From a virus, in the IMG/VR virus record IMGVR_UViG_3300030329_006034, positions 1 through 64,000 of that record: a DNA stretch of 64,000 nucleotides. One strand, 5' to 3'. The translations under genes were made by a program, and so were the position numbers. The notes under the pieces are model-generated. The model did no database searches, had not been told where the DNA came from, and saw nothing but the letters and a program-made list of their open reading frames with translations. Position 1 is the first letter of the stretch. Every line of letters starts with the position of its first letter. This document shows positions 23,732 to 37,160 of this stretch, one piece after another.

Positions 23732-24124
23732 ATGGCAGACAAAAAAATTAAGACTATCGTCGATCACATTGGCCGAACTGTTGTAGGTAAGGTGACAGCA
23801 GAGACTAAAAACTCTCTCACACTTTTTAACCCTGTAATTATTCATGTTCAACCTGATCAACAGACCGGGCAACTTCAGGTACAATCTTTTCCGTATATCT
23901 TTATGGAGTTCCTAAAAGACAAGGACAAAAATAATTGGATTTTCGATAAGAGCTCAATTAGTGTTTCGGATGTAGAGCTTGATGAGCGTATTATTTCCCA
24001 ATATAATAATATTAACAACCCCAACCCACCAATTCAGGAACCCCAGCAAGGGACTGGTGAAGAGCCCGAAGTAATTAAGCTCTTTGATGATGAGGAGGAG
24101 CCAGAGTTGGCGACCAGCAAGTAA
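23732..24124 (+). CDS. Conserved hypothetical protein of T4-like marine phages
   Basis: A 130-residue protein with a beta-rich first 90 residues (TIVDHIGRTVVGKVTAETKN; NPVIIHVQPDQQTGQLQVQ), resembling a small Sm-like barrel, and an acidic Pro/Glu tail (EEPEVIKLFDDEEEPEL). I recall similar sequences from cyanophages but no known role. An AAAATA box with a 5-nt ATAAT spacer precedes the ATG. Confidence 0.55.
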   Translation: MADKKIKTIVDHIGRTVVGKVTAETKNSLTLFNPVIIHVQPDQQTGQLQVQSFPYIFMEFLKDKDKNNWIFDKSSISVSDVELDERIISQYNNINNPNPPIQEPQQGTGEEPEVIKLFDDEEEPELATSK

Positions 24125-24311: not shown

Positions 24312-24329
24312 ATTCTATAATCAGTGTTA

Positions 24330-24335
24330 TAAATA
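24330..24335 (+). promoter_or_regulatory. Late-type box (TATAAATA) of hsp20
   Basis: TATAAATA at 24328-24335 is a full match to the T4 late octamer; the spacer to ATG is 8 nt. A TATAAT at 24316-24321 just upstream could give early expression too. Confidence 0.5.
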
Positions 24336-24343
24336 ATTTTACT

Positions 24344-24754
24344 ATGAAACTAACTAAATACACACACAACCCAATCGCAGAAATCGAAAGAGCCTTTGAT
24401 GGTTTTTTCAATCTGACGCCAGTCTTCCACCAGTTGGAAGAAGTATATAAAACAGGAGATCAAGTTCGATTTTCATCGGATGAAAACGCACTAGGCGTAC
24501 AAATTGATCTACCTGGAGTCACGAAAGATAATTTAGATCTTTCCACAGACACCGATCAACGCGAAGTCTATATCAAGGCAAAGCGTAAAATTATAGCCCA
24601 CGACGGGCAAAAGGAACAAACCTACAATAGGTCGTTCTCAGTTGGAAGGGAGTTTGATCTTAACAAAATTAAATTTCTATATGTCAATGGAGTCCTTGAG
24701 GTAGAGGTACCTCGTAGGAAAAAAGAAGAATATATTAAAACATATAAAGTCTAA
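24344..24754 (+). CDS. hsp20: Small heat-shock protein (Hsp20, alpha-crystallin domain)
   Basis: A 136-residue chaperone. The alpha-crystallin domain runs from about residue 40 to 130, with GVQIDLPGVTKDNLDL, REVYIKAKRK and the closing VNGVLEVEVPRRKK motif. A short C-terminal IKTYKV tail could play the part of the usual IXI anchor. Hsp20 genes are common in T4-like cyanophages and probably help protein folding or virion assembly. It is directly followed by the structured RNA at 24760-24986. Confidence 0.9.
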   Translation: MKLTKYTHNPIAEIERAFDGFFNLTPVFHQLEEVYKTGDQVRFSSDENALGVQIDLPGVTKDNLDLSTDTDQREVYIKAKRKIIAHDGQKEQTYNRSFSVGREFDLNKIKFLYVNGVLEVEVPRRKKEEYIKTYKV

Positions 24755-24759
24755 CAATT

Positions 24760-24986
24760 TAAATGGGCCTAGCTAGCCCAACCCGGGTGTGCCTGAATAA
24801 ACATTTTAAGCAAGAGTGTTAAAGGGACTGCTGACGTGCATGGAGGGTCAACTGACTATTAAGTGTATAATGCGGGGCACAAGTAGGTTTAAAAGATGAA
24901 ACTGCATCTTGCCTAACTGAAAGTTGGAGGTAACCAGAAAATCCTCTCACCCACCCTTTTAAAAAGCCCCGAAAGGGGCTTTTTTT
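24760..24986 (+). ncRNA. Structured non-coding RNA of unknown class
   Basis: This stretch between hsp20 and the gene at 25001 has no coding frame of note but folds well by eye: hairpin GGGC/GCCC (24765-24779), outer helix GGGTG/CACCC (24785-24789 with 24948-24952), inner helix TGCC/GGCA (24790-24793 with 24876-24879), stems AACATT/AGTGTT (24800-24820), AAGATG/CATCTT (24893-24910), AACT/AGTT (24915-24925) and GAGG/CCTC (24927-24946). It ends in a strong terminator. The form is a closed multi-branch RNA. It does not show RNase P, tmRNA or riboswitch landmarks I know. It may be cut from the hsp20 transcript or have its own start. Confidence 0.65.
24961..24986 (+). terminator. Rho-independent terminator
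   Basis: Stem AAAAAGCCCC/GGGGCTTTTT with a GAAA tetraloop, followed by further Ts to 24986. It is the clearest intrinsic terminator seen in the window. Confidence 0.88.
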
Positions 24987-24989
24987 ATG

Positions 24990-24995
24990 TAAATA
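24990..24995 (+). promoter_or_regulatory. Late-type box (TAAATA) of the gene at 25001-25318
   Basis: GTAAATA with spacer ATTAT (5 nt) before a GTG start, right after the terminator. Confidence 0.45.
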
Positions 24996-25000
24996 ATTAT

Positions 25001-25318
25001 GTGAACCTAATTGTTATAGCTGATTTAACCACAAACGAAGGGCTATACTTTAGGTATTTAACAATGATGGCAGAATCTAATGTTGTTGTTGAAACTACAA
25101 AGCCATTAATTGATTATCATTACAAAAATCTTAAGAGGCAAGGGTTATATGACTATGTAGATGATATGGTTACACCAGAGTGTGATGTGCAGGGTATAAG
25201 AATTGATACAGAACTCAACTACCCCATGACTATACAAACAGATACTATTCGCGGAACCAACGTTTTACACCTTTTGGAACAAATTAGGCAGTTGAAAAAC
25301 ATATATACTAAAATATAA
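25001..25318 (+). CDS. Hypothetical protein
   Basis: A 105-residue protein from a GTG start (an ATG at 24998 runs straight into TGA). LIVIADLTTNEGLYFRYLT and VVVETTKPLIDYHYKNL suggest an alpha/beta fold with a first-strand Asp, distantly like HAD or receiver proteins. I cannot assign a family. It is followed after 8 bases by uvsX. Confidence 0.5.
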   Translation: MNLIVIADLTTNEGLYFRYLTMMAESNVVVETTKPLIDYHYKNLKRQGLYDYVDDMVTPECDVQGIRIDTELNYPMTIQTDTIRGTNVLHLLEQIRQLKNIYTKI

Positions 25319-25319
25319 T
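25314..25319 (+). promoter_or_regulatory. Early-type -10 box (TATAAT) of uvsX
   Basis: TATAAT spans the stop codon of the previous gene; the spacer CTTATAT is 7 nt to ATG. Confidence 0.55.
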
Positions 25320-25326
25320 CTTATAT

Positions 25327-26454
25327 ATGGATAAAGATATTACTAGCGCGTTAGATGCTATTGATAAAGTAAACCCTTTTGCAACTTACCTCGATAACAA
25401 CACACTTAGCCATGTTGGTGAGTGGATTGATACTGGTTCATATGTGCTTAACGCTATTATTTCCGGTTCTATTCATGGTGGTATTCCAAAAGGAAGAGTA
25501 ACAATGTTGGCTGGTGAATCAATGACCGGTAAGTCATTGTTTGTGCAGAAGATTTTAGCTAAAGCTCAAGATGAAGGACTTACTCCTGTTATTTTTGATA
25601 CAGAGAATGCTATTGACCCTGAAGGAGCTGAAAGACTTGGTTTAGATATTAGTAAAGTTAAATACGTTCCTTGTACTAGCATTGAACAAGCACGTAACTC
25701 TTTGTATAAGTTCCTCATGGCTGTAAGAGAAAAGGGTCTTGAGGGTAAGTTCATTGTAGCTATTGACTCATTAGCTAACCTTCAATCTGAATTGGAACTT
25801 TCACGTATGAGTAAAGATAGTACTTCGTCAGATATGGGTACAAAAGCACGTGCGATGAAAACATTAATGCAAACTTGTACTAATTTAGGGTCAGTAACTC
25901 AAACTACTATTCTTTGTACTAACCATGTTTATGATGACCCCACTGCTTTGTTTCCTTCTATCGAGAAGAACATGCCAGGTGGTAAGTCGTGCGTTTATCT
26001 CCCATCAGTAACAGTTCAGTTAGCGCGTAAACCAATGAAATCAGATGGTGGTAAGACTGTTGATGGAGAACTTGCTGTAGGTCAGAAAAAATATTCTGGA
26101 ATTATTATTCGAGCTCTAACTCGAAAGAATCGATTCATTAAACAATACCTTGAAGGGGAAATCTACTTGTCTTTCTCTTCTGGTCTTGATCGTTACTATG
26201 GTTTAGTTGATTTGGCCGTGGGTGTTGGTGCTGTTGTACAAACTGGTGCGACTTATCAGCTTGAAGATGGTACTAAGCTAGGTTATTATAAGAATTGGAG
26301 AAAGGATGAAAAGCTTTGGGAAGAGACTATTCTTCCAAAACTTGAAGAACGAATTAAAGATGAGTGGTCATACAGCAATAAAGAAGAAGAGGCTCCGGAT
26401 GAAATTAATTCGTTAGATGATTTAATTAATGAAAAAGTTAGTACTAACGCTTAG
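25327..26454 (+). CDS. uvsX: UvsX RecA-like recombinase
   Basis: The 375-residue recombinase forms filaments on single-stranded DNA for strand invasion. Walker A is AGESMTGKSLFVQ (GESMTGKS 63-70) and Walker B FIVAIDSLANL (D147). The DNA-binding loop region around 160-200 holds the expected SSDMGTKARAMK segment. Length is near T4 UvsX (391). Helper proteins UvsY and gp32 are encoded at 14419 and 34170. The 3' end overlaps queC by 26 bases, so the two are probably translated from one message. Confidence 0.95.
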   Translation: MDKDITSALDAIDKVNPFATYLDNNTLSHVGEWIDTGSYVLNAIISGSIHGGIPKGRVTMLAGESMTGKSLFVQKILAKAQDEGLTPVIFDTENAIDPEGAERLGLDISKVKYVPCTSIEQARNSLYKFLMAVREKGLEGKFIVAIDSLANLQSELELSRMSKDSTSSDMGTKARAMKTLMQTCTNLGSVTQTTILCTNHVYDDPTALFPSIEKNMPGGKSCVYLPSVTVQLARKPMKSDGGKTVDGELAVGQKKYSGIIIRALTRKNRFIKQYLEGEIYLSFSSGLDRYYGLVDLAVGVGAVVQTGATYQLEDGTKLGYYKNWRKDEKLWEETILPKLEERIKDEWSYSNKEEEAPDEINSLDDLINEKVSTNA

Positions 26455-36832: not shown

Positions 36833-37160
36833 GAGAGACATATATGCGGTTGAGACAGGTGACTACATAGGGCAAATGTTCGCTATAGTCGATCTTAAAG
36901 AAGATACTATCGGGTGCCTTATTCTCCCGTCCATGGAAAATATTAATGTTCCACGAAAATCGTTTGATAACGGAAGGAACAATGATATAATTAAATTTGT
37001 AGAAAAGCTTCCTAAAGACGTTTATTCAGTTGTTGAGGCGCAATATAGAAAAAATGAAAACCCTGATAATAGACGGAAACAACTTAATACACCGAACGTT
37101 TTATACAGCAAAGACACAGTCGAAGAAGACAAACAACCACTCGGATTACCAGGTAAGTAA
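36819..37160 (+). CDS. Hypothetical protein with long overlap into the exonuclease gene
   Basis: A 113-residue protein; the first 80 residues (MSYCKRDIYAVETGDYIGQM... EKLPKDVYSVVEAQY) resemble a conserved cyanophage family. The last 35 codons share 107 bases with the exonuclease gene in another frame, so the C-terminus is constrained by both. The role is unknown. Confidence 0.5.
   Translation: MSYCKRDIYAVETGDYIGQMFAIVDLKEDTIGCLILPSMENINVPRKSFDNGRNNDIIKFVEKLPKDVYSVVEAQYRKNENPDNRRKQLNTPNVLYSKDTVEEDKQPLGLPGK

Follow-up and report, generated by a model that had tools for sequence, protein, structure and literature searches.

In bacteria, structured RNAs that lie past a stop codon and ahead of an intrinsic terminator are familiar as 3'-UTR-derived small RNAs. 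Among phage RNAs, the closest described counterpart of the element analysed here is the manA RNA (Rfam RF01745), rated a probable riboswitch by Weinberg et al. (2010; PMC2864571), who also marked it 'pseudoknot?'; no later functional study of manA was found in the literature searched. Its 5'-UTR position comes from the Rfam type (Cis-reg) and from the annotation of Weinberg et al., and is not a structural definition. Another phage RNA, wcaG (RF01761), adjoins manA in phage S-CREM1 (PMC9964418).

The stretch of viral DNA considered here, hereafter the window, is 64,000 nucleotides long (positions 1 to 64,000 of IMG/VR record IMGVR_UViG_3300030329_006034); all features discussed lie on its + strand. 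A gene encoding an IbpA-like small heat-shock protein (hsp20, 24344..24754; Pfam HSP20, E 5.4e-12) is separated from the next gene (25001..25318; 105 aa, unknown) by 246 bases, the largest gap that a simple ORF caller leaves in the window, where the median is 4 and the runners-up are 197 and 86 bases. The 197-base gap (36833-37029) may be due to a missed start codon. The gap after hsp20 is occupied by a 195-nt structured RNA (24763..24957) and a strong intrinsic terminator (24961..24986; AAAAAGCCCC GAAA GGGGCTTTTTTT, -15.3 kcal/mol). The initial annotation, made from the letters of the window, had proposed a structured non-coding RNA ending in a strong GAAA-looped terminator in a gap without a coding frame, and this is borne out by conservation, homology to RF01745 and compensatory changes. 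Stops break all three + frames, and a protein-coding reading of the gap is ruled out by single-base indels among relatives together with the stops in every frame. Folding energy alone argues only weakly for an RNA: the region including the terminator folds at -71.2 kcal/mol (z = -2.08), but the core without the terminator folds no better than shuffled sequences (z = -0.70). It is the comparative data, namely conservation, family homology and compensatory changes, that argue strongly for an RNA; the window-type sequence is 95% conserved over 22 distinct relatives, outside any reading frame.

A covariance-model search of Rfam with an E-value threshold matched the element to manA over its full length (model positions 1-192 of 192; 46.2 bits, E 8.6e-11), the matches ranking after manA being due to chance. 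The gathering cut-off of RF01745 is 55.2 bits, a database threshold and not a biological feature; as the score falls below it, a default Rfam scan misses the window RNA, and no match to the element was obtained at gathering cut-offs. For the reverse test, 22 close relatives of the window RNA served as the sole input of a covariance model (R1), with which 60 sources were then scanned; the model recovered 30 of the 46 known manA-bearing loci at the exact manA position and over the full length (E 1.9e-8 to 0.013), as well as the loci of a third variant, and nothing else in 466 kb. This variant 3, found after hsp20 in four loci (L268, L269, L299, L312), scores 47.4 bits, and a fourth variant, in G017, scores 35.4 bits. 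Given the full-length Rfam match and the reciprocal search, the RNA of the window lineage almost certainly represents a divergent subfamily of manA, one that escapes default annotation. Its divergent sequence and different middle domain appear to be new for manA. The match to RF01745 thus refutes the earlier placement of the element outside known classes; the Rfam search that had been proposed as a check overturns the claim of a new class and leaves the RNA itself standing. The exclusion of RNase P, tmRNA and 6S was correct, as no such Rfam family matched, and ARAGORN found no tRNA in the element. Rfam gave no match to wcaG in it either, and blastn against isolate phages returned only terminators and chance pieces. 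Seed-pattern matches in bacterial genomes were discarded, nearly all of them being chance after a check for the 3' motif.

The predicted fold starts with a 5' hairpin of the TGGGCC..GGCCCA type (24764..24780), supported by alignment and folding. The arms of the closing helix, GGGTG (24785..24789) and CACCC (24948..24952), are present as first described and covary across variants. Between them lie an invariant core, CTGAATAA (24793..24800), common to the manA consensus; a core hairpin, AACATTTT/AGAGTGTT (24800..24820), whose first pair is A-U, U-A or C-G among variants; a clade-invariant hairpin with an ACTG loop (24893..24910), in which CUG (24902-24904) would form one side of a pseudoknot whose counterpart covaries in classic manA; and a 3' hairpin, GGAGG/CCTCT (24926..24947), with a conserved GGTA..CAG..AATCC and double changes in three of its five pairs, which carries the CAG (24935-24937) predicted to pair with CUG. 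The closing helix and the helices at 24800-24807/24813-24820, 24893-24910 and 24926-24947 are supported, though some of those drawn by eye in the initial annotation may differ.

Covariation was assessed in 46 aligned copies, of which 4 are window-type, 1 is variant 3 and 41 are classic. Pairing is 98.4% over the closing helix, an AC/GU pair, the core helix and the 3' hairpin, with double changes at 7 pairs; the 41 double-change cells compare with 5.5 in shuffled data (none of 500 shuffles reached this number), and a shift of the partners by a single column is enough to make the support collapse. The closing helix occurs as GGGAG/CUCCC, GGGUG/CACCC and GUGAG/CUCAC, and as AGAUAUAU/GUAUAUCU, read from the sequence, in G017. 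The compensatory changes sought among relatives were thus found between variants; inside the window clade, whose members are 95% identical and for that reason uninformative, there are no double changes. For the pseudoknot that joins the CUGU loop to ACAG in the loop of the 3' hairpin, pairing reaches 97% over the 41 classic copies and three of four pairs show compensatory changes; the 'pseudoknot?' of Weinberg et al. (PMC2864571) gains support from this. The window clade retains only CUG/CAG of this pseudoknot, invariant in the clade. As the classic copies were gathered by the exact motif GGGNGTGNCTGAATAA, their invariance at its letters is by construction.

Classic manA copies have a characteristic layout. 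A TTGACA-TATAAT promoter close to consensus (at least 10 of 12 positions matching) stands directly before the 5' hairpin in 84 of 86 distinct copies, compared with 26 of 600 random positions, and often overlaps the terminator of the upstream gene. Upstream neighbours of the RNA in isolates are gp23, pstS, regA and ferredoxin genes, and downstream ones are purL, talC, gp32 and hypothetical genes; in P-TIM68 the downstream gene is on the other strand. A next feature is present for 92 classic copies: a same-strand ORF, mostly close by, for 82 of them, tRNA genes for 6 and ORFs on the opposite strand for 4. The genes that follow fall into 28 clusters, the largest of which (21 downstream ORFs, single-linkage) wrongly merges talC with Sm-like genes and is not one family; with neighbours so diverse, a fixed regulated gene next to manA was rejected. 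A downstream terminator was detected in only 9 of the 86 copies. Promoter and diverse neighbours together fit an RNA that starts at a site of its own and regulates no fixed gene, although most classic copies head a transcript and may therefore act in cis. As a separate observation, an element GACCTAAGATGCAACTC..GAGTCGGGCAGATGGTC, often with a T run after it, recurs just downstream of classic manA in 13 loci (L048, L049, L051, L059, L063, L115, L123, L132, L137, L138, L142, L143 and L144); it had no Rfam match in the loci searched, and its appearance suggests a conserved small RNA or structured terminator.

The window lineage is organized differently. A T4-type late promoter motif, TATAAATA (PMC3037559), lies upstream of hsp20 (24328..24335) and is conserved there in relatives; in the window it occurs near ORF starts more often than expected (8 of 19, compared with 2.5%). 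Since this motif shortly precedes the hsp20 start, the simplest transcript would comprise hsp20, the RNA and the terminator. No sigma70 promoter of their own was found above background in window-type copies (scores 8-9 of 12). Flanking DNA is present for 54 copies of the window type and variant 3, every one of which is located 30-48 nt past the hsp20 stop; in all 19 distinct copies of these types the terminator is kept 5-11 nt 3' of the RNA, so that in the window type it separates the RNA from the next gene. The RNA therefore sits after hsp20 and before a terminator, not in a regulated gene's 5' UTR, and such a 3'-UTR layout is new, not having been described for manA in the literature searched. 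Downstream, a late-promoter-like TGTAAATAATT (24988..24998), replaced by ATAAATAATT at the same place in relatives, precedes the gene at 25001, and a sigma70-like promoter (25292-25319; 11 of 12 in a promoter scan) precedes a uvsX/RecA-like gene (25327..26454; Pfam RecA, 8e-19).

The RNA is independent of its neighbours. Among 47 informative close relatives, 31 carry the window-type RNA and 4 carry variant 3, while 12 have no RNA and still keep hsp20 with its terminator. The gene at 25001 is lost in several relatives in which the RNA stays (e.g., L003 and L270). In G017, a distant relative, hsp20 has no RNA after it; the RNA directly follows the Sm-like gene, and a terminator, an ORF and uvsX come next. 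There is one RNA per genome. Its presence or absence among relatives and its placement in G017 make it a sporadic cassette of this slot.

Several further features of related contigs deserve mention. In the 17-kb contig G005:C1 (L281 and L357), hsp20 lies near one end with no RNA; the opposite end carries a window-type RNA and, after it, the downstream region again in a diverged (83%) second copy, the result of either duplication or chimeric assembly. In distant hsp20 relatives (L318, L319, L321-L327, L329, L331), another short conserved element follows the hsp20 stop: a late-promoter-like TAAATA, then the G-quadruplex-like AGGYCGGAGCATAAC..AAACAGGGGATGGATGGTGGG, and sometimes a terminator; four of these loci were searched and gave no Rfam gathering match to this element. 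Related or manA-bearing phage contigs also encode a glutamine riboswitch (glnA; L329:2139-2222, - strand) and a PhotoRC-II RNA (L142:13522-13621, - strand).

Taken together, the manA relatives resemble a gene for a stand-alone RNA more than the gene-control switch as which the family is filed. For the window RNA, the sequence data give about an even chance to the reading that a stand-alone phage RNA is set free at the 3' end of the late hsp20 transcript and acts in trans. It would be transcribed late, from the TATAAATA promoter, as the 3' end of the hsp20 mRNA; processing, which a free window-type RNA needs since it has no promoter of its own, would most likely release a discrete RNA of ~200 nt from the hsp20 3' UTR. 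The released RNA would fold as a closed multi-helix core with a loop-loop pseudoknot, would be protected by this closed fold and the terminator, and would act in trans on its own, not as a switch for the next gene. We base this reading on the promoters of classic copies, their diverse downstream genes and their tRNA and opposite-strand neighbours; and, in the window lineage, on the terminator that cuts the RNA off in every copy, the dispensability of the next gene, the sporadic occurrence of the RNA and its placement in G017. Against it stand the need for such processing and the fact that most classic copies precede a same-strand ORF, which accords with the published cis-regulatory view.

The location of all 54 copies shortly after the hsp20 stop and the missing promoter would suit a cis-acting element of the hsp20 3' UTR without a separate life, in which RNA and terminator protect the hsp20 mRNA or tune its translation or decay; some classic copies, too, directly follow hsp20 (L035, L055, L091, L096). 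We consider this unlikely, as relatives lacking the RNA retain both hsp20 and the terminator, most classic copies lie away from hsp20, and in G017 the RNA follows another gene. A ligand-sensing attenuator, in which the manA fold controls the adjacent terminator and hence read-through into the gene at 25001 and uvsX, is quite improbable. In its favour are the layout, an aptamer followed by a terminator, the rating of manA as a probable riboswitch (PMC2864571), and GGGGC (24874-24878), which could pair with GCCCC of the terminator; but GGGGC is changed to GGAGT in relatives with an unchanged terminator (L003), and this antiterminator pairing was rejected as not conserved. A conserved antiterminator, sought by eye, was not supported. 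Moreover, the terminator is retained where the RNA is absent, the next gene and uvsX each have promoter-like sites of their own, and detected terminators are rare behind classic copies. Finally, the shuffle-level folding of the core would be expected of an ordinary spacer that folds by chance, where the terminator alone matters; this is refuted by the 95% identity over 22 distinct non-coding sequences, the two-way full-length family match and the compensatory changes.

A candidate RNA-binding partner of the stand-alone RNA is encoded nearby. The ORF at 23732..24124, two genes before hsp20, has no Pfam match; its AlphaFold2 model (mean pLDDT 74) gave 3by7 as the best Foldseek hit (E 3.5e-4, probability 1.00), a structure described as 'structurally similar to Sm/LSm-like RNA-binding proteins'. 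The top five hits are all 3by7 chains, followed mostly by spliceosomal Sm/LSm proteins, so the modelled protein appears to have an Sm fold. It belongs to phrog_527, a family shared with a cyanophage Sm-like protein that also matches the Sm-like proteins encoded beside some classic manA copies. The Sm-like gene of the window clade shortly precedes the hsp20-RNA pair, that of G017 has the RNA as its 3' UTR, and in about nine classic loci an Sm-like gene follows the RNA. In three further loci (L396, L397 and L398) a tRNA gene cluster, with three genes visible in L396 and L397, is located between the Sm-like gene and hsp20. Near classic manA, Sm-like genes are about 2.5-fold enriched (19 near, 18 elsewhere), a comparison of small numbers that partly reflects hsp20 synteny, and the association is for these reasons a lead only; relatives without the RNA keep the Sm-like gene. 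Hfq is missing from most Prochlorococcus strains (PMC2518516), which makes a role of the phage Sm-like protein as an RNA chaperone plausible. That manA is the RNA part of a phage ribonucleoprotein bound by the phages' own Sm/LSm-like protein is a tentative and rather doubtful proposal; if true, T4-like marine phages would have a private Hfq-like small-RNA system in hosts often devoid of Hfq. The recurring nearby gene does offer a concrete candidate partner for manA.

The manA RNA, a probable riboswitch with an unknown ligand since 2010, is thus extended to a phage lineage that Rfam misses. The pseudoknot of the family is firmer, nearly all classic copies have a dedicated promoter just ahead of their first helix, and window-type copies cannot be 5' leaders; together these points argue for re-filing manA as an RNA gene. 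With described manA (PMC2864571), the window RNA shares the 5' hairpin, the closing helix, the GUGxCUGAAUAA core, a hairpin followed by UAA(A)GG, the ACUG loop, the GGUA..CAG..AAUCC 3' hairpin, a putative loop-loop pseudoknot and the length, as well as the occurrence in T4-like marine phages and the hsp20/ibpA neighbourhood. It differs in its score below the gathering cut-off, in the replacement of the middle domain with the ACAGGUGGUGCU loop, and in its position 3' of hsp20 with a terminator and no promoter of its own, whereas classic manA heads a transcript. Like wcaG, it is a structured RNA of cyanophage or marine origin with unknown function. Like phage tRNA genes, a cluster of which occupies the Sm-like/hsp20 slot of L396-L398, it occurs sporadically in a short intergenic slot of T4-like phages, but it is not a tRNA. 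Like bacterial 3'-UTR-derived small RNAs, it follows a stop codon and precedes an intrinsic terminator; what sets it apart from them is a family whose classic members have promoters of their own, and its processing is something we infer.
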